From: Spirosoma endbachense
GTDB lineage: Bacteria; Bacteroidota; Bacteroidia; Cytophagales; Spirosomataceae
Direction of reading: 5' to 3'
NCBI RefSeq assembly: GCF_010233585.1
Contig: NZ_CP045997.1
Coordinates: 7,612,654-7,676,653 of the forward strand
DNA: 64,000 nucleotides
Of the stretch, positions 38,584-58,764 are shown in pieces. Under the pieces are notes generated by a model, which had not been told where the DNA came from, did not search any database, and saw nothing but the letters and a program-made list of their open reading frames with translations. The stretch's first letter is position 1; each line of letters opens with the position of its first letter. The translations under genes and the position numbers were made by a program.

Positions 38584-38623
38584 TCTCTCTATTTCTTATT
38601 CAATCCCTTTAATCCCTCACATT

Positions 38624-41600: not shown

Positions 41601-41635
41601 GGCAGCGAATCATTCATAAGCTGGTGAAAGAATAG
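38624..41635 (+). CDS. Secreted M4 (thermolysin-like) metallopeptidase with duplicated novel domain and T9SS tail
   Basis: A 1003-residue protein from ATG 38624; the longer frame from 38462 overlaps the lipoprotein gene. Signal peptide 1 to about 22. Residues 50-230 look like an FTP/PepSY inhibitory propeptide. The zinc site is H409-E-Y-G-H413 with E435 in LNEGFSDIMG, and His501 in VHINAGVLDKWFH is the M4 transition-state histidine. Residues about 620-690 form a PKD/Ig-like linker. Two copies of a domain of about 105 residues start at C696 and C805 (CDFSxGPRxVGTW, DKYYPRGDNFW, CLNAGTTxWxGL, QDGAVY). The last 80 residues are a type A sorting domain (VRPNPVHNEVIVTF, LATGVYALEV) for export by type IX secretion. 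It ends at a terminator. Confidence 0.92.
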   Translation: MQKYLIFWLLFCSLLFQNDILYGQKFAPKYLRENDKSLLSLTSQYTEDGWLIFNPDSESIEASKFTSRFQNSLGLSGDYQLWLVKDKTDVKETRHQHFQLLWKNIVVEGGHLTLHSRKGVLKSVHSRIIDGLALNPERVISESQALESAVFAQKISLADFKNNLPKGQLILTSQDGNFATESYQLAYTFDILGGRESGDIKKALGPNRVYINAISGAVIKSVPLVSKCFDAKYSHGKVSHNQLQLLPTTQNLGKPLQAATFNSLHPRGNPTPSFEVEPLGTDFRLSMSTNVPQALITRVDLNNNAWLWANQNPPQINNAWDDPEVTNSSTNWGTNAQAATLSHWAVWRCYQYFLNRFNMNGTDGQGTIARVLSSPGYADGPVWWRNERLMVVEANPQGQVAAAVDIIGHEYGHGVSNHLVGGWTIFDGETGSLNEGFSDIMGSVIERELQPDGGPNGGDWYWQMGENAWYVRNMADPNIFGHPKIYHEPGFWNSTNPQLVHINAGVLDKWFHTLITGKGPNGDITPISSINDAMSVVYWALENYIYGDYNYANTANALRIAAGAVFGECSPQQRAVAAAWGAVGIPTSYICSPDCNFTATAITPTSVNCNQAMTLSSGCTAGPGNSNGWECQGITYTYSGPNVPYNPGSNPSLNVTAPASAGTYQYSLAMSKSGAGCYTPTFNFNVSVNCGSTPTCDFSNGPRYVGTWSNLVVQIRSISGRNVLVTAIPGSSDDKYYPRGDNFWGSFNQDPNAAGLQSCLNAGTTDWGGLTNPSSIAPPAGYYQGTEQDGAVYYAQNGTNPPNPCDFSSGPRHVGTWNNLNVEIRQFPNGKRALVTAEPNAYNDKYYPRGDNFWDNFTKDSGVENLQGCLNAGTTGWWGLEFPTSITPPSGYQQGTTQDGAVYFSTNGLRVGAQQETIEEVSLVKVRPNPVHNEVIVTFMLKEASDVQLRLLDVQGRVYQQHTHKGIAGKNERVLTVSSLATGVYALEVILERQRIIHKLVKE

Positions 41636-41764: not shown

Positions 41765-43954
41765 ATGAGCAATTTTCGGTTTAAAGCCCTCGAAATCGCC
41801 CAAAGCCGTCAGGCGATGGCCGTTGCCGCTCCCACCGAGCGCGTCGCCGATTTCTTTGGCAGCTACACATTCAACAATGAAGTGATGCGAACGCTTCTTT
41901 CGCCCGAAGCGTATATTAAGGTCACAGAGGCCATTCAAACGAATGGTCAGATCGACCGGAACATCGCCGACGAAGTGGCCGGGGCCATGAAATCCTGGGC
42001 AACTTCGAAAGGCGCCACTCACTACACCCACTGGTTTCAGCCACTAACGGGTGAAACTGCCGAGAAACACGATGCCTTCTTCGATATTACCATCGACGGC
42101 AAGGCCATCGAAAAATTTAAAGGCAGCGCCCTGGTGCAGCAGGAACCCGATGCATCGTCGTTTCCGAATGGAGGACTTCGGAATACCTTCGAGGCTCGCG
42201 GCTATACCGGCTGGGACCCCTCGTCACCTGCGTTCCTGATGGACAATGGAGCCGGAGGAAAAACACTCTGTATTCCATCCGTTTTTATTTCCTACACTGG
42301 TGAAGCACTCGATTATAAAACCCCGCTGCTCAAGGCATTAAACGCACTGGACAAGGCGGCAACGGCTGTTTGTCAATATTTTGACCGGAACATTACCAAG
42401 GTTACCCCAACGCTTGGGCCCGAACAGGAATATTTTGTGGTTGACCGGGCACTGTTCTACGCCCGCCCTGATCTGGTATTGGCGGGCCGTACGGTATTTG
42501 GTCATGCGCCCGCACGGGGCCAGCAGCTGGAAGACCATTATTTTGGCTCGATTCCTCCCCGCATCAATGCCTTCATGGTCGATTTTGAGTTCGAGTCAAT
42601 GAAGTTGGGCATGCCCGTTCGGACGCGGCATAACGAAGTTGCACCGGGCCAGTTTGAAGTTGCACCAACTTTTGAGGAAGTAAATCTGGCTATCGACCAC
42701 AACGCGCTGTTGATGGATCTGATGGAAAAAATTGCCGAAAAGCACAATCTGAAAGTTCTTTTCCACGAGAAACCATTCGCAGGTATCAACGGGAGTGGCA
42801 AGCATAACAACTGGTCGATGGGGACCAATACGGGTGTTAATCTGTTAGCGCCCAGTACCAAGCCCAAAGAAAGCCTTCGATTCCTGACCTTTCTGGTCAA
42901 TGTCGTGAAGGCTGTTCACGATAACGCCGATCTGTTGCGGGCTAGCATTGCCTCTGCCGGAAACGAATACCGGCTGGGAGCTAATGAGGCTCCACCAGCC
43001 ATTGTCTCCGTTTTTCTGGGCGAATCGCTGACACAGGCCCTTAATGATCTGGAAACCAAGTCGGAAGTTACGGTAAACAAGGGCGATAACGTGTATTACA
43101 AACTCGGTCTCAACCGTATTCCCAGCCTGATGCGTGATAATACGGATCGCAACCGAACATCGCCATTTGCCTTTACGGGCAATAAGTTTGAGTTTAGGGC
43201 AGTAGGCAGTTCGGCCAATTCGGCCTCTACCATGACCGTGCTGAATGCGATTGTGGCCGATCAGTTGAACAAATTCAAAACAGACCTTGACGAACGATTG
43301 GCGAAAGGCGAGAAGAAGGAACTGGCGATTGTCGATATTCTGAAAGCGTATTATTCTAACACGAAGCGAATTCTGTTTGAGGGCAATGGCTATTCTGATG
43401 AATGGGTCGAAGAGGCTGCTAGACGGGGTCTGTCGAATATCAAGTCGTCGCCTGAAGCGCTGGGCGTTTATGTGCAACCCGAATCACTGGCTCTGTTTGA
43501 ACGAACGGGCGTATTGAGCCACGCCGAGGTGGAGTCACGCTACGAGATCGAACTCGAAAAATACATTAAAAATGTACAGATCGAGTCGCGGGTTATGGGC
43601 GATCTGGCCATGAATCACGTTGTATCTACGGCGCTCAAGTATCAGAATAAACTGGCCGAAACGGCCCGTAATCTGGTGGAGTTGGGAATGGTCGCTGAAG
43701 CAGAGCCGATTAAAGACATTCTGCGCGAAATTTCGACCCGCGTGCTGGTGATCAAAAAAGGAGTCGAAGCGATGATCGAATCGCGCAAGAAAGCGAATAA
43801 TACGACCGATACCGCTGAACGCGCTAAACTATACGCAACGGAGGTTAAAGATCACTTCGAAATTATCCGTTATGAAGTGGACAAACTCGAGGAGATTGTC
43901 GATGACGAAGACTGGCCCCTGATTAAGTACCGGGAGTTATTGTTTGTGAAATAA
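41765..43954 (+). CDS. glnN: Glutamine synthetase, type III
   Basis: A 729-residue GSIII, the large hexagonal-ring class found in Bacteroidota and cyanobacteria, and unrelated in length to GSI and GSII. Family signs: SYTFNNEVMRTLLSPEAYIK at the N-terminus, ATHYTHWFQPLTGETAEKHD, GSALVQQEPDASSFPNGGLR, TLGPEQEYFVVDRALFYARP with metal-binding E-x-E, MPVRTRHNEVAPGQFEVAPT, HEKPFAGINGSGKHNNWSMG with the N-G-S-G-K-H site, and RDNTDRNRTSPFAFTGNKFE with the phosphate-binding arginines. The C-terminal 250 residues are the helical GSIII-specific region. It assimilates ammonia into glutamine. It lies only 4.8 kb from GSII. Confidence 0.97.
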   Translation: MSNFRFKALEIAQSRQAMAVAAPTERVADFFGSYTFNNEVMRTLLSPEAYIKVTEAIQTNGQIDRNIADEVAGAMKSWATSKGATHYTHWFQPLTGETAEKHDAFFDITIDGKAIEKFKGSALVQQEPDASSFPNGGLRNTFEARGYTGWDPSSPAFLMDNGAGGKTLCIPSVFISYTGEALDYKTPLLKALNALDKAATAVCQYFDRNITKVTPTLGPEQEYFVVDRALFYARPDLVLAGRTVFGHAPARGQQLEDHYFGSIPPRINAFMVDFEFESMKLGMPVRTRHNEVAPGQFEVAPTFEEVNLAIDHNALLMDLMEKIAEKHNLKVLFHEKPFAGINGSGKHNNWSMGTNTGVNLLAPSTKPKESLRFLTFLVNVVKAVHDNADLLRASIASAGNEYRLGANEAPPAIVSVFLGESLTQALNDLETKSEVTVNKGDNVYYKLGLNRIPSLMRDNTDRNRTSPFAFTGNKFEFRAVGSSANSASTMTVLNAIVADQLNKFKTDLDERLAKGEKKELAIVDILKAYYSNTKRILFEGNGYSDEWVEEAARRGLSNIKSSPEALGVYVQPESLALFERTGVLSHAEVESRYEIELEKYIKNVQIESRVMGDLAMNHVVSTALKYQNKLAETARNLVELGMVAEAEPIKDILREISTRVLVIKKGVEAMIESRKKANNTTDTAERAKLYATEVKDHFEIIRYEVDKLEEIVDDEDWPLIKYRELLFVK

Positions 43955-43959
43955 GTCTG

Positions 43960-44028
43960 AACCGGCATTTAACGGATTGAGGAATTAAGCAAAATCAGCT
44001 TAATTCCTCAATCCGTTAAATGCCGGTT
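43960..44028. terminator. 31-base-pair perfect hairpin between convergent genes
   Basis: Bases 43960-43990 pair without mismatch with 43998-44028 around a seven-base loop. It lies 5 bases after the glnN stop and touches the stop codon of the ROK gene on the other strand, so it can serve both transcripts. U-runs after it are weak (TTTAATAATT on the plus strand). The stem length is unusual for a terminator. Confidence 0.75.
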
Positions 44029-45260
44029 TAATAATTAGCGAAAATATCTTCCATCATATACGCGTGTGTCCCCAGCCATTTTGCGGCTCCATTCAACTGG
44101 GTTATTTCGATGGTCAGGTCGTTGCGGAAATCACTCAGGCAGTATTTACTAATTGCCTGTTCGATGGTGTTTAGGATAAAAGCTGCGGCTTTGGTTAGAA
44201 CACCATCAACGATTATCATTTCGGGATTGAACAGACTGATCGCAACGGCAAGGCCTTTCCCTAGTTGGAATCCCGTTTCGTGTAACATGTCAATCGCATA
44301 AGAATCGCCCTGGTGGGCTGCGTTGATCAGTTCATCAATATCGATCTGCTCAACCCGTTCCCGGAAAACGGCTAATTTAGAAACCTGTCCATCGGTAATA
44401 TCGCGTTGAACCCGCCGAACCAGCGCCGAGGCCGATGTAATGGTATTGAGGCAGCCTATTTTACCACAGTAACATAATTCACCCTCAGGGTCGACCTGAA
44501 TATGCCCTAATTCACCGGCAAAACCACTGGTACCCTGAAAAACTTCGCCATTAACGACAATTCCCAGGCCAACTCCCCAGTCAATATTAATGGCCAGCAC
44601 CTGTTTTTTACCCTGTGCTCCACCAAAACGGCTCTCTCCAAGTACGGTAGCTTTGGTATCGTTAATTAAATAAACAGGTAAACGGATCTGCTCCGAAAAC
44701 CAGCGAGGAAGCGAGATATTTGCCGGACTAAGATTCTTATAGGTCAGATTGGTGCCATGCCGGGCATTGACTAAGCCGGGCATGGAAATGCCAACCGCCC
44801 TGATCGTTTTGGGATTGATACCCGAATCGGCAAGGGTAGTTTTGTACTGTTGAACCAGCGTCGCCAGAAACGTTGGATTGTCTTCCAGGCGCAGATCAAA
44901 TTCACGACGAAAGACGATCTCACGGAGCACATTCATCACTAACAGTTTGGTGTCGTGCGTGCTGACATCGATCACAACCACATAATGCTTGGTTGTATCA
45001 AGACTAAACAGCGCTGGCCTTCGACCATTGTTACCCATGGCGGTACCCATGGCTGTTACCCATTTGTTACTAACCAGATCGTCGACAAGACTCGTCACGG
45101 AGGGTACACTACTGTGCAGCAGTTTGGCCAGGTGCGCCAGTGTGCAGGGGCCTTCTGCATACAGATAGGCCAGCATGTCGCGCTGCTTTTGTTTCTTCTT
45201 ATAATCTACAACTGACTGGGAAACAGGCAGGTCATCCTCAAGAAAAATAGTTGTATTCAT
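44028..45260 (-). CDS. ROK-family transcriptional repressor
   Basis: A 410-residue protein. The N-terminal 80 residues hold a winged helix-turn-helix (RDMLAYLYAEGPCTLAHLAK, then LLHSSVPSVTSLVDDLVSNK). The sugar-kinase-like ROK domain follows, with VVVIDVSTHDTKLLVMNVLR as the phosphate-binding loop, GISMPGLVNARHGTN, LINDTKATVLGESRFGGAQG, NIDWGVGLGIVVNGEVFQGT, and the zinc motif ELCYCGKIGCLNT (C-x-C-G-x-x-G-C). Proteins of this kind (NagC, Mlc, XylR) bind a sugar or its phosphate and release DNA. It diverges from the SusC/SusD locus with 258 bases between, so control of that locus by a sugar-like signal is likely. Confidence 0.93.
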   Translation of the reverse strand: MNTTIFLEDDLPVSQSVVDYKKKQKQRDMLAYLYAEGPCTLAHLAKLLHSSVPSVTSLVDDLVSNKWVTAMGTAMGNNGRRPALFSLDTTKHYVVVIDVSTHDTKLLVMNVLREIVFRREFDLRLEDNPTFLATLVQQYKTTLADSGINPKTIRAVGISMPGLVNARHGTNLTYKNLSPANISLPRWFSEQIRLPVYLINDTKATVLGESRFGGAQGKKQVLAINIDWGVGLGIVVNGEVFQGTSGFAGELGHIQVDPEGELCYCGKIGCLNTITSASALVRRVQRDITDGQVSKLAVFRERVEQIDIDELINAAHQGDSYAIDMLHETGFQLGKGLAVAISLFNPEMIIVDGVLTKAAAFILNTIEQAISKYCLSDFRNDLTIEITQLNGAAKWLGTHAYMMEDIFANY

Positions 45261-45518
45261 TTTGTTAAGACGAATGATACTATCGCGCCGTCATCTGGCC
45301 GATCAACAAGTTACGTCAAAGTCTCAAAGACAACTTTACGCCGTAGCTACTTAAAGACTGATGATATTTGTGGGCTTTTTGCTAAAGTTTTTAAAAAAAT
45401 ATATTAACTGCGTATTATTTCTAAATTAAATTTCTTAGGATTGCAGAGCCGTTAGATTTTCTAGGTAATTCCACTAGGCAACGGATTCATTTTATCACCT
45501 ACTTAATTACATGCTCGG

Positions 45519-48500
45519 ATGAAAAAACTCTTACTGTTAATGATGCTGATCCTGGTTCGGTGCTTACCGACTCTGGCACAGGCCAGGGCCACCGTTACGG
45601 GTCTTGTGCGCGATAGCCAAAGCAATCCCATTCCGGGGGCTACCATTCAGGTAAAGGGCTCTACAACCGGAACAACAGCAGGGGCTGATGGCACGTTTCG
45701 ACTGAGCCTGCCTGCCAACGCTTCTACATTGGTTGTATCGGCAATTGGGTTTGTCACGCAGCAAGTAGCCATTGGCAATGCCTCAGAATTTACGGTTACA
45801 CTTGCGGACGATTCCAAAACACTAGGCGAAGTGGTTGTAACCGGTTTTGGTATTAAGCAGGAGACCCGTAAACTTTCCTATGCTGCCCAGGAGGTGAAAG
45901 GAATGGATCTGGAACGGGCCAATAGCGCTAACCTTGTCAATGCGTTACAGGGAAAAGTGGCCGGTGTACAAATTGATCAGGGGTCGGGTGGTCCGATGTC
46001 GTCTTCACGGATTCGCATCCGGGGTAATGCATCGCTTAGCCCGAACACGCAGCCGCTTTTTGTTGTCGATGGCGTATTGATTCGGCCAACAACAACTGGT
46101 GCTGACTCGTGGGGAGCCGCTCAGGACTTTGGCAACATCATGAAAAACCTCAATGCTGATAACGTTGAGACCATGACGGTGCTGAAAGGGTCTGCAGCCA
46201 GCGCCCTGTATGGTTCAGAGGCTCTTAATGGTGTGGTTGTTATCACGACAAAGCACGGTCGTGAGCAAAAAGGCCTTGGCGTTACTTATAATCACACATC
46301 TTCATTTGAAAATGCCTACCGGTTTGTTGATGTGCAGAATCAGTATGGGGCCGGTATTGCACCGACCTTTAGTAAATCAGCTACCGGTACTGACCTGGTT
46401 GATACGCAAAACTGGCCTTATTCATTCGGACCCAAGCTGGATGGCCATATGGTGCAGGATATTGATGGCCGCATGATTCCCTGGAAAGCCAATGACCCAT
46501 TGAAGTTTTTCCAGACAGGTAAGTTCATCAATCACAATGTAGCCGTAGAGGGTGGCAATGAACGCTCCTCGTTCCGGGCGTCGTTCTCGAATCTGTTTAA
46601 TAATACGATTATGCCGGGTGGTGCCGAAATGAAGCGGAATAACTTCAATGTCCGGGCTACCCAGAAATTGGGCAAAATTTTCAGCCTCGATGTTTCGGCC
46701 GATTACACCGACAATAATAACCTGAACCCAATTCGGCAGGGTGGTAATTTTAACCCTGTTTTCCGGTTCGTCTATGGTCGTCCCCGGAGTTTTGATATTG
46801 ATTACTGGGCCAATAATTATGCGTCACCCGTGGGTGGTCGTAAGCAGGGCGCGGCTGATCCGTATAACATCTCGACGTTCATGTGGCAGACTTTCCAGTG
46901 GAACACGACTCGTAAGGAGAAGATTTTTCGGGGAAATATCGACGTCAATATGAATTTCACGCCCTGGCTGACAGGGTTGGTCCGGGCTAACATCCAGAAC
47001 GAATTATACCAGACCGAGAACAAAAATCTGGGCGATGGCGTAGGCTTTGCCGGTGGTGAATATTCGCAGTATTCGCAGGCTAACAATCAGTCGCGCATTC
47101 AGGCATTGCTGACGTTCAGCAAGGATTTGAGTCCTCTGTTTCATTTGAATCTGTCGGCTGGTGGTGAAACGAACCGGATTAACGGCGGTCGGGACTACCG
47201 GCTTCGTACGGATGGCGGATTGCGGATACCCGGCCAGTTTGCACTTCCTAATTCCATCAATCCGATTGTGGCTGATATCAGTGGCGACCGGCTGGCTCCC
47301 TCCAAGCGAACGGATGCCATCTACGCTTATGGCGATCTGAGCTATAAGGATGCGCTGTTTTTGAACTTCACCAACCGGATCGACTATTCCTCGGCGTTGA
47401 CCTATGCCAATGGAAGCGGACAGTATTCGTACTATTATCCATCGGTGGGCTTAGCCTGGGATTTTACCCAGTCTGTGAAAAATCTGCCGAAAAGCCTGTC
47501 GTTTGGTAAACTACGCGCTAGTTACGGATTTACCGGGGGCGATACAGATGCCTGGCGGACGAATCAGACGGGCTTCTACTCGGCAGGAAATATCTTTACG
47601 TCTACCGGTGGACAGATTCAGCAGTACGGTTTTCGGGATAATATCCTGCCTAACTACAACCTGCGGAACCGATTAGCCCGCGAATGGGAGGTAGGTGCAG
47701 ACCTGCGGTTCTTCAACAATCGGTTAGGCATTGATTTCGCTATTTACAACAAACTGACGACCAATGAGATCTTTACGTTGCCTGTGGCTACGGAGTCGGG
47801 TATTGCTTCGCGGTTGGCCAACGGTGGTAAAATTCTGAACCGTGGCGTTGAGATTTTGCTGACCGGTACGCCGATTAAAACGAATAAATTCCAGTGGAAC
47901 ACGGCGTTTAACTTCAGCCGGAACCGCAACAAGATTCTGGAACTGATCGAAGGCGTGGATACCTACCAGTTGAGTCTGGCTTTCGGAGCTGATATTCAGT
48001 CGATTGCTCGGGTAGGAGGGGATTATGGCACCATCAATACCTCTTATGCTTATGCCCGCGATGATCAGGGTCGTAAGTTGATCGGCGCGGCCAGTGGCAC
48101 GACCGGTGGCTATTTAACTTATCTGCGTAGCGGAGCTGCCGGGCAGGGGTCGAAAGATATTGGGACCATGCTGGAGAAGTTTCTGTTGAGCAACACCAAC
48201 AATTTCCGTTATGGTAATTTCTCGGCCACGTTGCAGGTCGATTCCAAAATTGGCGGTGTGATGGCATCTGCAACCCACGCCTACGGGTCGGCTTTTGGTA
48301 GCTTCAAGAATAGCCTGGCCGGTCGCGATGCGGAGTCGGGTGGGATCGCTTTCACCGATGCACAGGGCAACAAACGGAACGATGGTATTATTCCCGATGG
48401 TGTACTGAACAAAGGGGTTACGGCTACGGTCGATGGCAAACAGATTGATCTGGGCGGTATGACTTACAAAGATGCTGTCGACAAAGGCTATCTGACACCC

Positions 48501-48818
48501 GTTCCGGCCTATGCTTATTACGACAACCTGTCCAACTGGGGATCGGGGATCCGTGAGTATTCGGTTTTTGAAAACTCGTGGGTGGCTCTTCGTGAAGCAT
48601 CGGTTAGCTACGATGTACCGGCTACACTCCTGAACAGGGTTAAAATTCAATCACTGCGGGTGAGTGTGGTTGGCCGTAATCTGGGCTATCTCTACATGAC
48701 TGCCAAAGATGGTATCAACCCGCAGTCGCTGAAGAGCAACAATGCCGGTGAATTTGCTGAATACGGCGGACTGCCTTTCAGCCGCAACATCGGTGTAACG
48801 GTCAACGTAGGACTCTAA
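45519..48818 (+). CDS. SusC/RagA-family TonB-linked outer-membrane transporter
   Basis: A 1099-residue protein. Signal peptide 1 to about 21 (LLLMMLILVRCLPTLAQA). The carboxypeptidase-like domain is ATVTGLVRDSQSNPIPGATI. Next comes a TonB box region (LGEVVVTGFGIKQETRKLSY) and the plug with LVNALQGKVAGVQIDQGSGG, then IRIRGNASLSPNTQPLFVVD, and VLKGSAASALYGSEALNGVV, all SusC hallmarks. The barrel ends SVVGRNLGYLYMTAKDGINP and the final aromatic-free VGL. It transports a nutrient together with the SusD lid encoded 33 bases downstream. The substrate is not clear; no glycoside hydrolase is nearby, so it may not be a polysaccharide. Confidence 0.95.
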   Translation: MKKLLLLMMLILVRCLPTLAQARATVTGLVRDSQSNPIPGATIQVKGSTTGTTAGADGTFRLSLPANASTLVVSAIGFVTQQVAIGNASEFTVTLADDSKTLGEVVVTGFGIKQETRKLSYAAQEVKGMDLERANSANLVNALQGKVAGVQIDQGSGGPMSSSRIRIRGNASLSPNTQPLFVVDGVLIRPTTTGADSWGAAQDFGNIMKNLNADNVETMTVLKGSAASALYGSEALNGVVVITTKHGREQKGLGVTYNHTSSFENAYRFVDVQNQYGAGIAPTFSKSATGTDLVDTQNWPYSFGPKLDGHMVQDIDGRMIPWKANDPLKFFQTGKFINHNVAVEGGNERSSFRASFSNLFNNTIMPGGAEMKRNNFNVRATQKLGKIFSLDVSADYTDNNNLNPIRQGGNFNPVFRFVYGRPRSFDIDYWANNYASPVGGRKQGAADPYNISTFMWQTFQWNTTRKEKIFRGNIDVNMNFTPWLTGLVRANIQNELYQTENKNLGDGVGFAGGEYSQYSQANNQSRIQALLTFSKDLSPLFHLNLSAGGETNRINGGRDYRLRTDGGLRIPGQFALPNSINPIVADISGDRLAPSKRTDAIYAYGDLSYKDALFLNFTNRIDYSSALTYANGSGQYSYYYPSVGLAWDFTQSVKNLPKSLSFGKLRASYGFTGGDTDAWRTNQTGFYSAGNIFTSTGGQIQQYGFRDNILPNYNLRNRLAREWEVGADLRFFNNRLGIDFAIYNKLTTNEIFTLPVATESGIASRLANGGKILNRGVEILLTGTPIKTNKFQWNTAFNFSRNRNKILELIEGVDTYQLSLAFGADIQSIARVGGDYGTINTSYAYARDDQGRKLIGAASGTTGGYLTYLRSGAAGQGSKDIGTMLEKFLLSNTNNFRYGNFSATLQVDSKIGGVMASATHAYGSAFGSFKNSLAGRDAESGGIAFTDAQGNKRNDGIIPDGVLNKGVTATVDGKQIDLGGMTYKDAVDKGYLTPVPAYAYYDNLSNWGSGIREYSVFENSWVALREASVSYDVPATLLNRVKIQSLRVSVVGRNLGYLYMTAKDGINPQSLKSNNAGEFAEYGGLPFSRNIGVTVNVGL

Positions 48819-48851
48819 TTCTCGGCACGTATCTCAATCGAACTTACGCAT

Positions 48852-50561
48852 ATGCTTATCTCCTATAAAAACTATTTCTCCGGACTGCTCATGGCAGGGA
48901 CGCTGGTATTCAGCGGGTGCCAGAAGGAGGCTTTCGTGGAAACCAACATTAATCCGGAAGGGCTAACGAGCGTTCCGCCAGCCAATCAGTTCCTGAACGC
49001 AACGCTGTCGTTGCACGGACAGGATTTTGAAGCGTTTTATGACCTTTACCAGCGGATCATGCCCTGGATGCAGTATTCAACAGCTGTGAATGGAAATGGA
49101 CAGAATTTTACGCAGGTATACGACAACTTCTCACAGCGATATGGACGCCTGTATAATGGTGTTGGCAATACGCTGGTTGACGTAGAAAAACTGGTCGCGA
49201 ATCTCCCCGCCGAAGAGCAGCCCCGCTACGTACACATGATCCGGATTGCGCGGATTCTGAAAGCATACTACACGTTTTATGTGAGTGATATTTACGGCAG
49301 TATTCCTTACTCGGATGCTTTTCAGGCCCGTTATGGCGGCACACTAACGCCAAAGTATGACCCGCAGCAAACCATTTTCGCAACGCTCGATACCGAATTG
49401 AAAGAAGCGATTACAACGTTGAAAACCGCTCAGACTGCCTCACAGGTAGCGTTGGGTACCAATGACCAGTATTATGCCGGTAATACACAGCAGTGGGTAA
49501 AAGCGGCTAATGCACTACGGCTAAAAATAGCGATACGTCTGGCAAAACGCGATGCCGCGAAGCTTAAAACGATTGCGCAGGAAGTATTAAGTTCTCCGGC
49601 AGCCGATCTGATGAGCAGCAATGCCGATGGGTGGATGTTTATTACGCCAGCCAGCTTTACGGGCGGTAGTGATTCGAACTGGAATCCCGCCAATTTGCGG
49701 GCTGCCAAGCCGCTGGTCGATTTCATGTGGGATACCCAGGACCCCCGACTTGATGCTTTCTTTACGCAAAACAGTTATTCTCAGTCCAATATCGATCTGC
49801 TGATTGCCGACAAGCAACTGCCAGCCGGTACCAAAGAGTCGCGCCGTTATCTGGGCGGGTTCACCGGCCCGGATGCTGCGAAAGTGGCCCAGAATGTACA
49901 ACGTTTCTACACTCCGCGCTATCTTACCTTAAATGGCAATCGTACGGCAATCGATACGCTGTCGTATGTGCAGCCGCGTCTGTTCCAGGCGGGCTATGCT
50001 GATGCGAGTGGAACTGCCGGAACGGGCAAAAACTATTTCCCTGTTATCACCTATGCCGATTTCTGCTTCATGCGGGCTGAACTGGCAGCACAGGCCATTA
50101 CGGGCGAAAGTGCCAAAACCTGGTATGAAACGGCAGTAACTGCATCGTTGGATTGGTACGATATGGTTGCGCAGGGAGCGCAGGTGTTCAACTATACAGC
50201 CATGACGGCGGCAGAGAAGACCGCTTATCTAGCTAATGCCAAAGTGGCCTTCAATGCTGCCAAAGCGATGGATTTAATCGCCAGCCAGGAGTATATCCAT
50301 TTTCTACGTCAGCCAGCCGAAGGGTGGGCAACCTGGAAAAGAACCGGACTGCCCAATACAACGTCGACACTGGTTTTGCCAGCGTTGATTTCGAACGGTG
50401 CTACACTGGTGGTTCCTCGGCGGGCCCCCCTTGGTATTCCGAATGTCAATGATCCGAACTATGCGAACCGCAGGGCGGCCCTTGATGAAATGGCTAAAAT
50501 AACCGGCTTCGGAACCGACCCTCAGGATGCTACGGGTCGTGTTTGGTGGGATCAGCTCTAG
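48852..50561 (+). CDS. SusD-like (SusD_2 type) nutrient-binding lipoprotein
   Basis: A 569-residue surface lipoprotein. The signal is MLISYKNYFSGLLMAGTLVF with lipobox FSGC. The mature protein starts ETNINPEGLTSVPPANQFLN, the pattern of the SusD-like_2/SusD-RagB group rather than classical SusD. Helical TPR-like repeats continue (YVHMIRIARILKAYYTFYVS, then DIYGSIPYSDAFQARYGGTL, then WVKAANALRLKIAIRLAK). PVITYADFCFMRAELAAQAI and WKRTGLPNTTSTLVLP are further family signs. It caps the SusC barrel and captures the ligand outside the cell. A strong terminator follows at 50595, so the downstream genes may need read-through or their own promoter. Confidence 0.95.
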   Translation: MLISYKNYFSGLLMAGTLVFSGCQKEAFVETNINPEGLTSVPPANQFLNATLSLHGQDFEAFYDLYQRIMPWMQYSTAVNGNGQNFTQVYDNFSQRYGRLYNGVGNTLVDVEKLVANLPAEEQPRYVHMIRIARILKAYYTFYVSDIYGSIPYSDAFQARYGGTLTPKYDPQQTIFATLDTELKEAITTLKTAQTASQVALGTNDQYYAGNTQQWVKAANALRLKIAIRLAKRDAAKLKTIAQEVLSSPAADLMSSNADGWMFITPASFTGGSDSNWNPANLRAAKPLVDFMWDTQDPRLDAFFTQNSYSQSNIDLLIADKQLPAGTKESRRYLGGFTGPDAAKVAQNVQRFYTPRYLTLNGNRTAIDTLSYVQPRLFQAGYADASGTAGTGKNYFPVITYADFCFMRAELAAQAITGESAKTWYETAVTASLDWYDMVAQGAQVFNYTAMTAAEKTAYLANAKVAFNAAKAMDLIASQEYIHFLRQPAEGWATWKRTGLPNTTSTLVLPALISNGATLVVPRRAPLGIPNVNDPNYANRRAALDEMAKITGFGTDPQDATGRVWWDQL

Positions 50562-50594
50562 TGTATACCCGCTGAATTTTTCATAACTTAATGC

Positions 50595-50626
50595 CCAACC
50601 CGTCACATTGACGGGTTGGCTTTTTT
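50595..50626 (+). terminator. Intrinsic terminator after susD-like gene
   Basis: CCAACCCGTCA at 50595-50605 pairs perfectly with TGACGGGTTGG at 50609-50619 around a three-base loop, followed by C and six T. It begins 33 bases after the SusD stop and ends 10 bases before the start of the next gene. Confidence 0.92.
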
Positions 50627-50636
50627 CGGATTGTTT

Positions 50637-51968
50637 ATGAAGCAGTGCCTGGCACATGGAATAATCTGGTTAAGTTGGTTTTTAGTAAGCAACGCAGTTT
50701 ATGCACAGAAGCCAACGTTTTATCAGGATGTCCAACCGTTGATTCACGCTAAATGCGCGGTTTGCCACCGACCGGGTGAGGCTGCTCCGTTTTCGCTGAT
50801 TACCTATGAAGATGTAACGAAACGGGCGAAATTCATCCGGAAAGTGGTGAACTCGGGGTACATGCCCCCCTGGCGGGCCGATGATCATTATGTCGCATTT
50901 GCCAACAAACGCAGCCTGACACCAGAGCAGATCAAAATACTAACCGACTGGATCGATGCAGAACTGCCCAAAGGCAAGGTCAATACCGATGCCGAAAAGG
51001 AATTGCTCAAACGGGCTCAGGCAGGTACGGGCTACAACCGGGTGCCCGATCTGACCTTAAAAATGCCCCAGCCCTTTAAGGTAATCGGCGATGGAGTTGA
51101 GCGGTTTATGGTGTTCAAGATCCCATTCGAACTGGCCGGGGAAGCGAACGTAGAAGCAATTGAGTTTACATCCACAGACAAAAAGAGTATCCATCACGCC
51201 AATTTTGCCATTCACCCGGTCGATGATCCGGGCATCGATTTGAACAATACGGTCGCGCAGGTTAACCTGAATGGCGATGATGCGTCGCGTTATAGGGAGT
51301 GGTTGCCCTACAAAAAACAATTGACCTATTATAGCGGCTGGATTCCCGGAACAACCGTTGAAACGTATCCGGCCGATATGGGCTGGGTGATGCCTAAACG
51401 AGGAGTTGTACTGCTGACTGTTCATTTTGGCCCAGCTGCTAAAGACATCGAGAATGTAAGTGGCGTCAATTTTTTCTTTACAAAAAAGCCCATCCGACGA
51501 ACTGTGAAAGTGATCAGCTTAGGGTCTGGGGGGATTGGTGAGAAAGAAATTACACCTCCGCTGCTGGTATTTGGTGGCGATAGCCTGACAACCCGACTGC
51601 GAATCGCCTATCGAAATCAACCCATCACGCTGTTATATGCCTGGCCCCATATGCACCAGATTGGCAAACGATTCACCGCTTTCGCTACCCTGCCCGGTGC
51701 CGATACGCTGCGGCTGGTACGCATTCCGGACTGGGACTTTCGCTGGCAGGAAGTATATCGCTATCAGAAGCCAGTCATTCTGCCGACAGGGGCGGTAATT
51801 AACGTGATTGGAACGTATGATAACACCGAAGGAAACCTCCAGAATCCGAACAAACCGCCTAAGCTGATCACCTCAGATGGTCAGATGCGTAGCGATCAGG
51901 AAATGCTGACACTGCTGCTGCTGTACGTAGCTTACGAACCGGGCGACGAAAACCTTCGGCTTAACTGA
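50637..51968 (+). CDS. Cytochrome c fused to a copper type II (PHM-like) monooxygenase-like protein
   Basis: A 443-residue exported protein from ATG 50637, the first codon after the terminator. Signal peptide 1 to about 23 (HGIIWLSWFLVSNAVYA). A small cytochrome c domain follows, with heme motif C40-A-V-C43-H44 in AKCAVCHRPGEAAPFSLITY and the possible axial Met in GYMPPWRAD. Residues about 150-440 resemble the two domains of copper monooxygenases of the peptidylglycine-hydroxylase fold: His186-His187 in SIHHANFAIHP could bind one copper, H338-M-H340 in WPHMHQIGKRF and M423 in QEMLTLLLLYV the other, and GTYDNTEGNLQNPNKPP is the typical loop. The substrate is unknown. It is 6 bases ahead of the FG-GAP gene. 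Confidence 0.85.
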   Translation: MKQCLAHGIIWLSWFLVSNAVYAQKPTFYQDVQPLIHAKCAVCHRPGEAAPFSLITYEDVTKRAKFIRKVVNSGYMPPWRADDHYVAFANKRSLTPEQIKILTDWIDAELPKGKVNTDAEKELLKRAQAGTGYNRVPDLTLKMPQPFKVIGDGVERFMVFKIPFELAGEANVEAIEFTSTDKKSIHHANFAIHPVDDPGIDLNNTVAQVNLNGDDASRYREWLPYKKQLTYYSGWIPGTTVETYPADMGWVMPKRGVVLLTVHFGPAAKDIENVSGVNFFFTKKPIRRTVKVISLGSGGIGEKEITPPLLVFGGDSLTTRLRIAYRNQPITLLYAWPHMHQIGKRFTAFATLPGADTLRLVRIPDWDFRWQEVYRYQKPVILPTGAVINVIGTYDNTEGNLQNPNKPPKLITSDGQMRSDQEMLTLLLLYVAYEPGDENLRLN

Positions 51969-51974
51969 CCTGCT

Positions 51975-54900
51975 ATGTGGACTCCTCAATTAGTGCTGGC
52001 GGCTGTCTGTTTAGTGGCCGGATTGCTTTGGCCCGAAACAAGTTCAGATCCGGCCCCGCTCTTTACGGCACTATCGCCCGAACAAACCCATGTGCGGTTC
52101 GTCAATTCCTTGACGGAAACTGATTCACTGAACATTTTTCGGTACGAATATCTCTACAATGGCAATGGTGTTGGTGTCGGCGATTTTAATGATGATGGCC
52201 AGCCCGATTTGTTTTTTTCGGGCAACACCGTTCCGCATAAGTTGTATCTCAATCGGGGGGGCTGGCAGTTCGATGACGTGACCGAGCGGGCGGGCGTTGT
52301 AGGGAATGGAACCTGGGCAACGGGCGTGAGCGTGGCCGACATAAACGGCGATGGCCGATTGGATATTTACGTCTGTCATTCTGGAAAATACCCTGCCGAA
52401 AAGCTGGCCAACGAGCTGTTTATCAATGAAGGCGTTCGCGATGGCGTGCCGCAATTTAAGGACCGGGCCAGAGAGTTTGGACTCGATTTGCCGGGTACGC
52501 AATCGACGCAGGCTGCTTTTTTCGACTACGACCGCGATGGCGATCTGGATGTTTTTCTGCTGAACCACTCCAACCACACCTACAATCCATTTCTGAATAC
52601 CCGCAAAATCAGGGCAACACCCGATATGCGGTTCGGGAACCGATTGCTGCGCAACGATAACCAAAAATTTACCGATGTTACACTGGCAGAGGGCATTATC
52701 AACAATCCACTAAATTTTGGACTTGGCGTGGGTGTCAGCGACCTGAACGCCGACGGCTGGCCCGACCTCTATACCACCAGTGATTACACGGAACAGGATT
52801 GTCTGTATCTAAATCAGCATGATGGTGCTGGCCACCACACGGGCTTCAAAGAATCATTACGAACCGCGATGACGCATACATCCCGGTTTTCGATGGGTTG
52901 CGATCTGGCTGACTTTAACAATGATACGTTACCCGATGTGGTGACACTGGACATGTTGCCGGAGGACAACCACCGCCAGAAAATGCTGAAAGGCCCGGAT
53001 GAATATGACGCCTATCAGATGCTGATTGACAGCGGATACTTCCGGCAGCAGATGCGAAATATGCTTCAACTCAACCGGGGGCTGGAAGACAAAAAGCAAA
53101 TCCGTTTTAGTGAAATAGGGCAGTTGGCCGGTATAGCCGCCACCGATTGGTCGTGGTCGGCCCTGCTGGCCGATCTGGATAATGATGGTTGGAAAGATCT
53201 GTTCGTAACCAACGGGTATCTCCGCGACTTTACGGATCTGGACTTTATGAAATACACCGTCGCTGAAACTAAACTACAGGAAGCGGCAAAGGGAAATCTG
53301 AACTTTCAGACAATTGATCTGTTACGGAAAATGCCCTCGAACCGCCCCACTAACTATGCGTTTCGGAACAACCACGACCTGACTTTCAGCAATCAATCAG
53401 CCGCATGGGGACTGACGATACCGGCGGTGTCGGGTGCTGCGGCTTATGCTGATTTCGATGGAGATGGCGACCTGGATCTGGTCGTCTGTAAGCAAAACGA
53501 ACCGGTAGGTATTTACCGGAACAATGCCGAACGGAACCGGGCCGACGCTCATTTCCTGCAGATTCGCCTGCGGGGGAAGGGAGCCAATACGCAGGCCGTC
53601 GGGGCGAGGGTAGTGCTCGAAACCACCGACGGACGGCAACTACAGGAGGCTTATGCTGTGCGGGGTTACCAGGCATCAGTCGAACCAACGCTGCATTTTG
53701 GTCTGGGAAAGCAAACCAGCATTTCCCGATTGACAGTATACTGGCCTGACGGCACACAGAGCCAGCTCGCCAATCTGCCCGGCGATCAAACCTTCACGAT
53801 ACAACAAAATGAAGGTAGCAGGCAAACCGTCCAGCGAATGCCGGAAGTCGCCTGGTTTAAGCCATTGGCGATGAATCAATTGCTGCCGTATCGGCACCGC
53901 GAAAACGATTTTATCGACTTTAAGGTAGAGGTGCTGATTCCTTATGAACTGTCGCGGCTGGGGCCAGCATTAGCCAAAGCAGATGTAAACGCCGATGGGC
54001 TGGATGATGTTTTTCTGGGCGGTGCCGTCGGGCAACGGGATGAACTATGGATTCAGCAGTCGGATGGTTCGTTTAATCGTGCTGATTCGCAGCCCTGGCT
54101 TGCCGATGCAGCCAGTGAGGATGTAAACGCCCTGTTTTTCGATGCTGACCGCGATGGTGATGCGGATTTATATGCCGTAAGCGGAGGAAATGAATATGAA
54201 GATGGATCGCCGGAATATCAGGATCGTCTTTATGTCAACGATGGAAAAGGGAATTTTACCCGCGCCCCACAGGCACTGCCACAAATGCGAAGCAGCAAAC
54301 TGGCCGTAGCGGCTGCTGACATGGACCAGGATGGCGATCTGGATTTGTTTGTGGGTGGTCGGGGTAAGCCAGGCACCTTTCCATTCCCGTCGGAAAGTTA
54401 TCTGCTGCGTAACGATACACCCTCCGGCGGATCTGCACGTTTTACCGACGTTACTGACCATATAGCCCCGGCTCTACGGCATATCGGTATGGTTCAGGCT
54501 GCTGCCTGGACTGACTTTCGGGGGGATAAATTTCCCGAATTGGTTCTCGCGGGTGACTGGATGCCCATGCATCTGATCGACAATCAGAAAGGGCAATTGA
54601 CTGATATTTCCAGTGGGGCTGGCTTTACGGGCACGGAAGGAATGTGGGCGAGTCTGTTACTGGCCGACATCGATCAGGACGGCGATACTGACATCATAGC
54701 GGGTAATGCTGGCCTGAATAATCTGTTCCGGGCTGACGCCAGGCAACCGATGCAGATCACCACAACCGATATTGACAATGATGGCGTGCAGGACCCAATC
54801 TGGACTTATTATATTCAGGGCAAAGCTTATCCGGTGGCTTCACGCGACGAATTGCTCGATCAGGTAGTGCCTTTGCGGAAAAAATTTACCCGCTACCATC

Positions 54901-55343
54901 AATACGCCGATGCAACCGTCACCGATATTTTAAATCCTTCACAATTAACCCAGGCATCGGTCGTAACGGTTCGGCAACTGGCATCAGGTATTTTTGTAAA
55001 TCAGGGCAATAAAACATTCAGGTTTGAGGCTTTTCCAACAGAAGCTCAACTGTCGCGGGCAAGCGCGCTGCTGATCGACGATCTGGATGAGGATGGAAAA
55101 GCGGATTTGCTGGTGGCCGGAAATTTCTATCCCTATCGCGTACAGCTTGGCCCTTGCTCGGCAAGTTTCGGTTGCTTGTTAAAGGGTAATGGTCAAGGTA
55201 AATTTCAACCTGTGCCTCCCCAAAAAACGGGCATCTGGGCCAGCGGTGATGTGCGACAGGTGGTTAGCCTGCGGTCGGGAGCCGGTCGACGACGATTACT
55301 GTTTACGGTCAATGATGGTTCGTTAATAGGGTTTGAGCGATGA
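51975..55343 (+). CDS. Giant FG-GAP/VCBS repeat protein with ASPIC/UnbV domain
   Basis: A 1122-residue exported protein with an N-terminal hydrophobic signal (TPQLVLAAVCLVAGLLW). It carries about fourteen calcium-loop motifs of the D-x-D/N-x-D-G-x-x-D type, for example VGDFNDDGQPDLFF, ADINGDGRLDIYVC, FDYDRDGDLDVFLL, ADFDGDGDLDLVVC, ADMDQDGDLDLFVG and TDIDNDGVQDPIW. They are spread through two beta-propellers (about 60-500 and 655-1080). Between them is an ASPIC/UnbV domain (GANTQAVGARVVLETTDGRQ, then VRGYQASVEPTLHFGLGKQ, then LTVYWPDGTQSQL). Such proteins bind calcium and act as surface or periplasmic binding scaffolds. Its stop overlaps the next start by 4 bases (ATGA), so it is coupled to the haloperoxidase-like gene. 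Confidence 0.92.
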   Translation: MWTPQLVLAAVCLVAGLLWPETSSDPAPLFTALSPEQTHVRFVNSLTETDSLNIFRYEYLYNGNGVGVGDFNDDGQPDLFFSGNTVPHKLYLNRGGWQFDDVTERAGVVGNGTWATGVSVADINGDGRLDIYVCHSGKYPAEKLANELFINEGVRDGVPQFKDRAREFGLDLPGTQSTQAAFFDYDRDGDLDVFLLNHSNHTYNPFLNTRKIRATPDMRFGNRLLRNDNQKFTDVTLAEGIINNPLNFGLGVGVSDLNADGWPDLYTTSDYTEQDCLYLNQHDGAGHHTGFKESLRTAMTHTSRFSMGCDLADFNNDTLPDVVTLDMLPEDNHRQKMLKGPDEYDAYQMLIDSGYFRQQMRNMLQLNRGLEDKKQIRFSEIGQLAGIAATDWSWSALLADLDNDGWKDLFVTNGYLRDFTDLDFMKYTVAETKLQEAAKGNLNFQTIDLLRKMPSNRPTNYAFRNNHDLTFSNQSAAWGLTIPAVSGAAAYADFDGDGDLDLVVCKQNEPVGIYRNNAERNRADAHFLQIRLRGKGANTQAVGARVVLETTDGRQLQEAYAVRGYQASVEPTLHFGLGKQTSISRLTVYWPDGTQSQLANLPGDQTFTIQQNEGSRQTVQRMPEVAWFKPLAMNQLLPYRHRENDFIDFKVEVLIPYELSRLGPALAKADVNADGLDDVFLGGAVGQRDELWIQQSDGSFNRADSQPWLADAASEDVNALFFDADRDGDADLYAVSGGNEYEDGSPEYQDRLYVNDGKGNFTRAPQALPQMRSSKLAVAAADMDQDGDLDLFVGGRGKPGTFPFPSESYLLRNDTPSGGSARFTDVTDHIAPALRHIGMVQAAAWTDFRGDKFPELVLAGDWMPMHLIDNQKGQLTDISSGAGFTGTEGMWASLLLADIDQDGDTDIIAGNAGLNNLFRADARQPMQITTTDIDNDGVQDPIWTYYIQGKAYPVASRDELLDQVVPLRKKFTRYHQYADATVTDILNPSQLTQASVVTVRQLASGIFVNQGNKTFRFEAFPTEAQLSRASALLIDDLDEDGKADLLVAGNFYPYRVQLGPCSASFGCLLKGNGQGKFQPVPPQKTGIWASGDVRQVVSLRSGAGRRRLLFTVNDGSLIGFER

Positions 55344-56674
55344 AGAAACGACTACTGGTCATCACCGCAGGTTTAATGAGTCTGACAGCGCCCGCTCCGA
55401 ATCGTTCGGCATCGGCAGAGACGCGCTGGCTGCATTCGGCGCACCAACTACTAACGGCCATCATAGTATCGGATGTGTTTTCGCCCCCCGTTGCTGCCCG
55501 GATTTACGCCTATGCGCACATTGCCGCCTACGAAACACTTGTGCCATTTCAGGCTGGACGTTATCGATCCCTGGCCGGACAGATCCCGTCAATGGCAACA
55601 TTGACCACTACGCCACCGGCTGGCTGTAATCCGGCTCTGGCGGCCACCGAAGCGTTTTTGCGCGTTGGACGCACAATGATTTTTTCGGAGAAAACCTTCG
55701 ATCAGGAAACAACGCAACTTTGGGAACAGATCAAAGCAGCGGGCTATTCTGAGGAAACCATTCAAGTGTCGAAAGCATTTGGTGAACAGGCCGCTCAGCA
55801 TATCATTGCCTGGGCTAAGGGCGACAACTACCGGCAAACACGGTCGCTCCGTCGGTATGCCCCCGTAAAGCAGGCTGGCGCATGGGCACCGACGCCCCCC
55901 GGTTACATGACCGCTGTTGAGCCTTATTGGGGCCGCATCCGACCATTCGTGCTCGACTCGGCTGCGCAGTGTCGGACAACCGGACCTCCTCCGTTCAGTA
56001 CAAACGAGAAAAGTCAATTTCGTGAGGCTGCGTGGGAGGTCTACGAAACGGGTAAAAACAGAACGGCCGAACAGCGGCTAATTGCGAGTTATTGGGATTG
56101 TAATCCATTTTTTCTGAACACACAGGGGCATCTGAATTTTGCCAGCAAGAAGCTTTCGCCGGGTGGTCACTGGTTGTCTATTGCCGGACAGGTTGCACGC
56201 CTAACGAAAGCCAATCTGATCACTACGAGCGCAGCTTACACAATGACGGCGATTGCGCTCTTTGATGGGTTTATTAGTTGCTGGCATGAGAAATATCGCT
56301 ACAACGTTATCCGACCCGAAACGTACATCAACGCCCATATTGACGAGAACTGGCGGCCGTTGTTGCAAACACCGCCTTTTCCTGAATATCCCAGCGGCCA
56401 CAGTGTTGTATCGACCGCTTCGGCAGTTGTGCTGTCGGCAGTTTTGGGCAAAAATGTTTCGTTCGTCGATAGCACCGAAATGGCTTATGGCTTACCGTCG
56501 CGTCGGTTCACATCATTTAACCAGGCCGCCGATGAGGCTTCAATCAGTCGTTTGTATGGAGGTATTCATTATCGGGCCGCGCTGCAAAACGGCCAAGTGA
56601 TGGGAAAGGCAATAGGAGAGCTTGTAATCCGACGAATTAACCTGCGTCAGGCAGTTTTAAGTCAGAAACCATGA
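55340..56674 (+). CDS. Vanadium-dependent haloperoxidase / PAP2-superfamily enzyme
   Basis: A 444-residue exported protein with signal peptide (KRLLVITAGLMSLTAPAP). The three-part PAP2/vanadium-haloperoxidase fingerprint is complete: KYRYNVIRPETY (K-x6-R-P), YPSGHSVVST (P-S-G-H), and SRLYGGIHYRAA (S-R-x5-H). The length and the SRxxxxxH-Y-R-A-A form fit vanadium haloperoxidases rather than lipid phosphatases. Such enzymes use vanadate and hydrogen peroxide to oxidise halides; the same site can act as an acid phosphatase. Bacteroidota homologues next to FG-GAP proteins are usually annotated this way without proof. It closes the SusC to haloperoxidase gene row. Confidence 0.9.
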   Translation: MKKRLLVITAGLMSLTAPAPNRSASAETRWLHSAHQLLTAIIVSDVFSPPVAARIYAYAHIAAYETLVPFQAGRYRSLAGQIPSMATLTTTPPAGCNPALAATEAFLRVGRTMIFSEKTFDQETTQLWEQIKAAGYSEETIQVSKAFGEQAAQHIIAWAKGDNYRQTRSLRRYAPVKQAGAWAPTPPGYMTAVEPYWGRIRPFVLDSAAQCRTTGPPPFSTNEKSQFREAAWEVYETGKNRTAEQRLIASYWDCNPFFLNTQGHLNFASKKLSPGGHWLSIAGQVARLTKANLITTSAAYTMTAIALFDGFISCWHEKYRYNVIRPETYINAHIDENWRPLLQTPPFPEYPSGHSVVSTASAVVLSAVLGKNVSFVDSTEMAYGLPSRRFTSFNQAADEASISRLYGGIHYRAALQNGQVMGKAIGELVIRRINLRQAVLSQKP

Positions 56675-56702
56675 TGATTTCTCGCGGGTGTTCAGTACCC
56701 GT

Positions 56703-57593
56703 TCAGTGTTTCTTTACTTCATATTGCCGCCCGTAAATGTAACGTAGCGCAAGCCCCAGGCCCCAGCCAGAACCATTCGACGTAATGGTGGCCTGCTGTT
56801 GCGAACCATTGTTAACCGTATAGAGCAAGTCAGATTTAAGCGCGTCGCCCAGTCCCCAATATTTGCGGGCATAAAATCCTAACTCGAACCGAGTGGATAA
56901 TCGGGTGGCATAGTCAATTCCCAGTTCGGCAATCCCCGTAACACTGTTAAAAATAGTCGTTGTATTGTTGAGTCTAAGCGTATCGATGCGATTTCTGCCA
57001 CGCCGACTATAGCCAATCAGTTGAAAATCGCCCGTTTGTCCGCTTCCGTTAGGGATAAGCCACGCGCCCCCGGTGAGCCAGAAACCAGTGCCGTTTGCTG
57101 ACCCTTTACCCGATCCAATGCGTCGTTTTATTCGTAGAGGAATGCCATAGCCGTTGTTCAGGTAATTAAATTCAAGCGGATCTGCATTGTTGGCAATCGT
57201 AATATTGAGGTGAATAGGCGACCGGGTGTAGCCCGTTTCAATAGTCCATGAATTATGGTATGTATAGCCCAGTAGAACACTCCAGGTAGCTTTTGTCAGG
57301 GTAGCGCTGCTCACCAGCCCGTCGAGCGAATTGCTCAGGATGCTGCCATCGTTTCGAAATCCACCTTCGACCCCTATATACCAGGTTTGTATTTCGTTGA
57401 GCTGATCCAGTAGCTCTCGTCGGTTATCGGCCCGCTTCGATTGCCGGGTTTTTAGATTATCGTCGGGATCTGCCAGAATCACCCGCCGACGAACAGGAGG
57501 AGGAGCATAATAATTTGTATCGATCACGACCTCCTGAGCTTGTGCCGATAGTGACAAACCGACCAGAAAGGCAAGAAGCGAGATATTTTTCAT
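56703..57593 (-). CDS. Outer-membrane beta-barrel protein of unknown function
   Basis: A 296-residue protein from ATG 57593; the frame can be extended to 57653, but the signal peptide MKNISLLAFLVGLSLSAQAQ begins here. After a charged, Arg-rich linker (PPPVRRRVILADPDDNLKTR, then QSKRADNRRELLDQLNEIQ), the rest alternates like an 8-12-stranded barrel: WYIGVEGGFRNDGSILSNSL, then WSVLLGYTYHNSWTIETGYT, then FWLTGGAWLIP, ending WGLGLALRYIYGRQYEVKKH. No named family is recognised; it belongs to the broad outer-membrane beta-barrel group. It is convergent with the haloperoxidase gene, only 28 bases away, so it is a separate transcription unit. Confidence 0.78.
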   Translation of the reverse strand: MKNISLLAFLVGLSLSAQAQEVVIDTNYYAPPPVRRRVILADPDDNLKTRQSKRADNRRELLDQLNEIQTWYIGVEGGFRNDGSILSNSLDGLVSSATLTKATWSVLLGYTYHNSWTIETGYTRSPIHLNITIANNADPLEFNYLNNGYGIPLRIKRRIGSGKGSANGTGFWLTGGAWLIPNGSGQTGDFQLIGYSRRGRNRIDTLRLNNTTTIFNSVTGIAELGIDYATRLSTRFELGFYARKYWGLGDALKSDLLYTVNNGSQQQATITSNGSGWGLGLALRYIYGRQYEVKKH

Positions 57594-58392: not shown

Positions 58393-58764
58393 GTCTTCAC
58401 AATTATCAGTTAAACCAACGTGAATTGGCCTTTGTCGAGGAAAGTAGTGTTGTTGGCAAGCTACCAATTTTTGATCAATCTGCCGTAGTGAAATCAGGTG
58501 GCAGATTCCACTAAAAATGGCTGAAATAATTCGGTGGAGTGCTGGTAGTAATGTTGCACCCAGAAACTCGATGATACTGTCTAGATTTATAACTACCTTT
58601 CATCTCTTATTGCATTTGGCTGTATAACAGTAGATTGCATGAAAGGATGACTGATTTTTCAGGACAGATCTATGGATAAAAGCCAGGCAATGCCGTGAAA
58701 GTAGGAATCACCCGTAGGATTTTTAGACGAAGGGCGTCTAATGCCTAAAAGCCATTCGCCCCGT
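58393..58764. other. Divergent intergenic region with a hairpin at the peroxidase start
   Basis: These 372 bases carry no credible gene. TTAGACG at 58723-58729 and CGTCTAA at 58735-58741 form a short hairpin that covers the upstream candidate ATG (58741) of the peroxidase gene, which is one reason to prefer the ATG at 58765. No other structure was seen. Confidence 0.45.

Follow-up and report, generated by a model that had tools for sequence, protein, structure and literature searches.

The window analyzed here is a 64,000-nucleotide stretch of the Spirosoma endbachense genome (contig NZ_CP045997.1, positions 7,612,654 to 7,676,653; the whole genome is a single contig of 10.33 Mb, which was also covered by profile searches). 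Between positions 45,519 and 56,674 it contains five consecutive plus-strand genes, found where a first-pass annotation made from the letters alone had placed them. The first two encode a SusC/RagA TonB-linked outer-membrane transporter (45519..48818; TIGR04056, 544.5 bits for a cut-off of 368) and a SusD-like_2 surface lipoprotein (48852..50561; PF12771, 182 bits for a cut-off of 27). They are adjacent, with 33 bp between them, as at a SusC/SusD locus. The other three, named P, F, and V hereafter, encode a putative fusion of a mono-heme cytochrome c and a PHM-type two-copper monooxygenase that is predicted to be exported (P, 50637..51968), an FG-GAP plus ASPIC/UnbV protein resembling CRTAC1 (F, 51975..55343; PF13517 and PF07593), and a vanadium haloperoxidase/PAP2-superfamily enzyme of the 4cit type (V, 55340..56674; PAP2, 40.9 bits for a cut-off of 27.2). 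Profile searches above cut-offs thus agree with the families annotated for all genes except P. The last three genes are as tightly packed as had been noted, with 6 bp between P and F and a 4-bp overlap between F and V. A terminator-like hairpin (50595..50619, plus strand; 11 pairs, then CTTTTTT) lies between SusD and P, and a gene for a ROK-family regulator with a winged helix and a ROK domain (44028..45260, minus strand; PF00480, 190.8 bits) lies upstream of SusC.

The open reading frame of P opens with a TTG at 50616 and has an alternative ATG start at 50637. Because the TTG falls inside the strong hairpin, the ATG is the likelier start, in which case the SusD-P gap is 75 bp instead of 54 bp. 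All Pfam matches of P are sub-threshold, and Cu2_monooxygen gives no match at E 0.01. The cytochrome c/PHM-like identity proposed for it is supported instead by a CXXCH heme motif in the N-terminal segment, by an invariant copper-ligand pattern, and by a structural model that matches the PHM/DBM fold. Six residues (H193, H194, and H270, then H345, H347, and M430) are invariant across 18 P rows, in which one sequence, fetched as both L010 and L034, is counted twice. They complete the ligand pattern of PHM/DBM, with three His at one copper and two His and one Met at the other; the assignment to the PHM copper sites follows order and spacing only, using what we take to be the PHM residue numbers. 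As modeled, P would share fold and copper-ligand pattern with PHM/dopamine beta-hydroxylase, from which it differs by its low identity (∼14%), its extra N-terminal CXXCH heme segment, and its bacterial origin and predicted export. We recognized no description of a cytochrome c-PHM fusion among the papers listed by a literature search.

F contains nine FG-GAP_3 stretches and a UnbV_ASPIC domain as assessed by Pfam. Its predicted structure (pLDDT 87.7, pTM 0.87) has murine CRTAC1 as its closest PDB match (9etn; E 1.3e-26, TM 0.72 of target), a match that does not specify which portion of F is concerned. F differs from CRTAC1 in being about twice as long, in being read as two beta-propellers, and in being tied to SusC/SusD genes. 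Of the nine ASPIC matches in its own genome, five have a PF07980 SusD no more than 6 kb away (two of these five share a row), and the F of the window is a sixth case, adjoining a SusD of the other type; for random positions the figure is 11%. Apart from a general remark on adhesion via calcium-binding repeats in the part of PMC2668756 available to us, which draws no link between FG-GAP and SusD, the literature found states no role for bacterial ASPIC/FG-GAP proteins. Two other genes were seen in relatives. An FG-GAP-profile protein of ∼508 residues, with a CXXCH-like motif close to the N terminus, adjoins the Telluribacter loci (L015, 16708-18234, with a counterpart in L016), and a ∼190-residue gene occurs in the F rows of 20 order-set loci (L044, L063, and L082 among them), the one member tested giving no Pfam match.

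V is similar over its full length to the vanadium haloperoxidase chain 4cit (E 1.8e-123). We take PDB entries 4cit and 4usz to be a Zobellia vanadium iodoperoxidase; ZgVIPO1 was reportedly studied by Fournier in 2014. The oxyanion site is complete, all seven residues (K318, R325, S352, G353, H354, R404, and H410) being present in V and kept in 115 of 115 rows of its close relatives (window included, and again with one sequence counted twice). PAP2 phosphatases and vanadium peroxidases have a common active site, and HX3D, with an Asp four residues past the last His, is the motif of PAP2 acid phosphatases. That Asp is Ala in the V of the window and Asp in 1 of the 115 rows, which weakens an identity as a generic PAP2 phosphatase; it is present in five of seven distant V paralogues of the same genome. 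Compared with the Zobellia-type iodoperoxidase, V has the same seven oxyanion-site residues and a Trp and a Phe at two second-shell sites. Tyr263 (presumably so numbered in the Zobellia-type enzyme) is replaced by Phe in 14/14 window-type V rows, and Asp322 is His in the V of the window, so that halide preference is not transferable from the Zobellia enzyme to V. V is found in at least 101 of 241 genomes of the order (E<=1e-40) and in 69 of 395 genomes of the phylum (E<=1e-80). Ten matches occur in its own genome, two of which stand in rows with F and SusD (the window and L026).

That all five proteins carry export signals, as annotated, was upheld in part. Their N termini look export-like by eye, but that of F, although hydrophobic, has no basic start. 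SusD has a lipobox (..FSGC), whereas none is seen in the F and V of the window, all as read by eye. Among the fetched loci, a crude lipobox pattern matches 103/139 F and 71/111 V, and it recognizes only 37/54 SusD.

Conservation of the row in relatives had been set beforehand as the test of its coupling to uptake. In total, 17 distinct loci contain all of SusC, SusD, P, F, and V (the window; L009, L010, identical to L034 and counted once, L011, and L013-L016; L035-L037, L042, and L045; L154-L157), with SusC running off the end of the examined sequence in L013 and L014. Since the row is conserved and SusC/SusD accompany P-F-V in 17/17 loci, the opposite outcome, P-F-V without the importer in most genomes, did not materialize, and the coupling is supported. 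The order SusC-SusD-P-F-V is seen in Spirosoma, Siphonobacter, Telluribacter, and one Cytophagia metagenome-assembled genome (MAG), and SusC/SusD lie downstream of V, not upstream of P, in four loci (L015, L016, L042, and L045). Four genomes from families f23 and f24, within the class of S. endbachense and outside its order, have ROK, SusC, SusD, a redoxin-family gene, P, F, and V on one strand (L154-L157); the redoxin-family gene scores above the AhpC-TSA cut-off in L154, L156, and L157 and below it in L155.

The phylogenetic trees cover part of the rows (55 V, 40 F, and 53 SusC, the non-P rows being thinned by similarity for V and F). In the F tree, the 16 rows from P loci cluster in a single clade, apart from the other 24 rows (100/100; 200/200 bootstrap trees). 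In the V tree, the 16 P-locus rows form one clade together with contig fragment L012, which ends before any P position. The SusC of the window is nearest to SusC from other P-bearing loci, and the window type pairs with the SusC of L150, a P locus without V, with 100% SH-aLRT and a long branch involved. A chance neighborhood was rejected, considering that the row is kept beyond the order and that P, F, and V sort together in the trees.

The ROK gene is likely a local regulator of the locus. It is divergent from SusC in the window, has an additional sub-threshold match to a MarR helix-turn-helix, and scores well under the cut-offs of the NagC and Mlc models. It adjoins SusC in 8 of the 17 loci (the window, L035-L037, and L154-L157), divergently in the window and L035-L037; in four others the examined stretch stops short of the region upstream of SusC.

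Among the 241 order and 395 phylum genomes, P at 51% identity or more occurs in 11, and in 11/11 V is at most 6 kb away. In three genomes with P at 45-50% (G139, G030, and G247), no V was found at the thresholds used, and P adjoins SusC/SusD (L150, L151, and L174), with F as well in G247. At 33-38% identity, L152 and L153, one of them a paralogue from the genome of the window, have SusC, SusD, a small gene, and P, with neither F nor V. A distant P in L175 has no SusC/SusD inside the 12 kb examined. Because most of the more distant P that were fetched adjoin SusC/SusD without V, the locus in the window has the appearance of two units brought together, a SusC-SusD-P module and an F-V pair. Such V-less loci (L150-L153 and L174) would also suit a metal-acquisition locus, in which SusC/SusD and P handle a copper chelate, P serving chiefly to store or reduce copper. 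The redoxin-family gene, above the AhpC-TSA cut-off in L150 and L174 as in three of the f23/f24 loci and below it in L155, might then deliver copper. However, ROK regulators usually respond to sugars, and profile searches matched no family for copper export or chelate synthesis in the row; we consider a copper function highly unlikely.

To follow F and V beyond P, 100 V loci of the order were fetched from a longer list of matches, best first and then by selection, skipping the near-duplicate second match of G176 and other low-scoring places. F lies within the stretch of up to 20 kb in 73 of them, directly upstream on the same strand in 57. Both F and SusD are present in 55/100 and SusD only in 1/100. 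Outside the order, 20 phylum loci taken one per genus (L159 having no V open reading frame after filtering) contain F in 16 and SusD in 11. The link of F-V to SusC/SusD therefore extends well past the window and is strongest for F. In 26/100 order loci, neither F nor SusD is found (11 of these have a SusC-profile match, and 15 none of the three), so V can function without them. These solitary V, together with the haloperoxidase that is the nearest solved relative of V and the many F and V that look like lipoproteins by the crude pattern, bring up a protective role. The redox genes would guard the importer, V (with P or the redoxin partner) clearing peroxide or making hypohalous acid against competitors, while SusC/SusD import an ordinary nutrient. 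Such a role is conceivable but rather unlikely, considering that the F and V of the window show no lipobox and that P, F, and V are co-inherited with one SusC type more tightly than general defense needs.

The hairpin after SusD has a predicted stability of -19.1 kcal/mol, equaled by 0/200 shuffled sequences. Terminator-like sites are not in excess across 45000-57000 (9 found versus 13.2 expected), and this one has the longest stem among them. A comparable hairpin is present at 9/9 SusD-to-P junctions of relatives (L035-L037 being near-identical), at 53/54 SusD-to-F junctions, and after 14/17 of the remaining SusD genes whose loci contain F or V. It follows 3/10 SusD genes in a small control of loci with neither F nor V. 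Rates elsewhere are 1/83 for F-to-V and 2/80 for SusC-to-SusD junctions and 93/1147 for the ends of non-SusD genes. The idea of a single, even transcript of five genes is weakened by this hairpin, from which we infer partial termination or 3' protection, with more importer than enzyme being produced. Such a hairpin after SusD may prove general among SusC/SusD loci; the portions available to us of three Bacteroides RNA papers (PMC7366714, PMC11697453, and PMC10994844) make no mention of one.

What the locus takes up was approached through neighboring genes. The row of the window indeed has no glycoside hydrolase, as annotated, and profile searches of its proteins matched no carbohydrate-active enzyme family; for sister loci the statement is untrue. 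An exported-looking GH65 near sister F-V loci passes the kojibiose hydrolase model (1130 bits for a cut-off of 800) and lies at most 5 kb from V in at least 12 of the 50 genomes having GH65; in 16 further GH65 loci that were fetched, no V was found. GH65 as a fixed partner of V was rejected as a rule in view of those 16 loci. L059 contains a GH65 phosphorylase-type protein and a beta-phosphoglucomutase (241 bits for a cut-off of 189). Other neighbors of sister F-V loci include GPH-like and SSS transporters, PfkB and ROK kinases, GH97, GlpK, aquaglyceroporin-type channels, and a sucrose-phosphorylase-like protein slightly under its cut-off. At least one of twelve sugar/glycerol families lies no more than 7 kb from V, and on its strand, in 26/80 F-V loci and in 2/30 V-without-F loci, a comparison that is descriptive only, the families having been picked after the loci were read. 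In an alphaproteobacterial MAG (L019), V-F is flanked by a sugar-type ABC importer (Peripla_BP_4/BPD_transp_2) and by a catabolic row, the genes seen there being RpiR, an aldehyde dehydrogenase, an aldolase, and Gfo/Idh. The V-F pair is present in five such MAGs (L018-L022), of which L018, L020, and L021 resemble L019 by eye and gene size.

The small genomes of family f8 have six loci (L080, L082, L101, L103, L106, and L113) with GlpK and a GlpD-like gene (under model cut-offs) downstream of V; in four of the six, genes for an aquaglyceroporin-type channel and a GDPD phosphodiesterase follow as well. This arrangement, like the active site common to PAP2 phosphatases and vanadium peroxidases, would fit V acting as a phosphatase on phosphate esters to free sugar or glycerol, in which case its vanadium chemistry would belong to the laboratory only. 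Because the f8 genomes are near kin, however, the glycerol link amounts to one or few events, and the near-universal absence of the HX3D Asp among close relatives of V points the other way, making a phosphatase role improbable.

The first-pass annotation had suggested that SusC/SusD may import a small oxidized or halogenated compound which these enzymes produce or remove. The haloperoxidase signature and the export-like N termini are compatible with this idea. In the parts of these papers available to us, a Zobellia vanadium iodoperoxidase gene (vIPO3) is raised on the brown alga A. nodosum and discussed alongside algal halogenated compounds (PMC9296495), and an Arenibacter accumulates iodine (PMC5064120); no mention of haloperoxidase was found in the corresponding parts of PMC8626586 and PMC8537180. 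The neighbors lend it no support, since the catabolic genes of sister loci serve sugars and glycerol. Two HAD-type genes near P or V were tested as dehalogenases and rejected, that of L059 being the beta-phosphoglucomutase and that of L015 a YjjG-type nucleotidase, both over cut-offs; no dehalogenase was met in reading the neighbors, although no search was aimed at them. We regard such an oxidized or halogenated compound as a quite improbable substrate. A small glycoside or polyol glycoside appears likelier, for the P-F-V type by kinship only.

Taken together, we tentatively prefer the possibility that the locus is an inducible SusC/SusD uptake system in which extracytoplasmic processing is oxidative instead of hydrolytic. 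The ROK regulator would respond to a sugar-like inducer, and SusC/SusD would import a small, probably glycosidic, nutrient. PHM enzymes hydroxylate a C-H beside a heteroatom. P, receiving electrons via its own heme, may do so on the nutrient, after which an ether, amine, or glycosidic bond could break. V, with vanadate, halide, and hydrogen peroxide from side reactions of P or from the surroundings, may carry out a second oxidation or dispose of peroxide. F, with its calcium-type repeats, might act as a scaffold or ligand holder keeping substrate and enzymes together outside the cytoplasm, and the hairpin would keep the importer in excess over the enzymes.

Several observations weigh against oxidative processing of an imported nutrient. 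No ROK gene is found next to SusC in 5/17 loci (L034, L015, L016, L042, and L045), and none of the sugar/glycerol families occurs near the P-F-V loci (0/10). More distant P are without V and mostly without F, so P and V need not share a substrate, and the 26 V loci with neither F nor SusD were mentioned above. The hairpin could fully stop the SusC-SusD transcript, leaving P-F-V on a separate promoter. Finally, induction of the Zobellia iodoperoxidase gene on a brown alga, as given in the part of PMC9296495 available to us, fits halogen chemistry. A more specific proposal, which we put forward as a long shot, makes P a PHM-type copper monooxygenase that receives electrons from its cytochrome and cleaves glycosides or ethers through C-H hydroxylation. 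With its two coppers it would be the equivalent of a lytic polysaccharide monooxygenase in a SusC/SusD locus free of hydrolases, with V and F as peroxide partner and scaffold.

Other genes of the window were also noted. Just downstream of the locus, 58741-59799 encodes a di-heme cytochrome c peroxidase of the MauG type, which scores 169 bits against the MbnH model TIGR04039 (cut-off 363) and is thus not assigned to it. Upstream, two glutamine synthetases of different types (35926-36960 and 41765-43954) stand 5 kb apart, with a thermolysin-like peptidase carrying a Por_Secre_tail sorting domain between them (38462-41635). The product of 32767-35310 belongs to the phosphoesterase family and has a C-terminal domain of bacterial phospholipase C, and an AcrB-type efflux protein with a CusB/HlyD-type adaptor is encoded at 4606-8984.

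The row resembles a polysaccharide utilization locus in having SusC/RagA followed by a SusD-like lipoprotein, a nearby regulator, and partners predicted to be exported. It differs in the absence of a glycoside hydrolase, the partners being a putative heme-copper monooxygenase, a CRTAC1-like propeller protein, and a vanadium peroxidase-like enzyme. We found no description of this combination of genes, nor of a vanadium haloperoxidase together with SusC and SusD, in a literature search that left most subscription journals outside. The families of the parts are known, and our findings suggest an uptake system not described so far, in which the nutrient may be processed by oxidation. V-type enzymes are common in Bacteroidota, and what we found published on their role concerns a single Zobellia gene whose expression goes up on a brown alga, as seen in the accessible part of PMC9296495. 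Tying V and F to SusC/SusD pairs offers a testable pathway, that of uptake loci oxidizing a nutrient, and the cytochrome c-PHM fusion, if true, would bring PHM chemistry into bacterial nutrient uptake.

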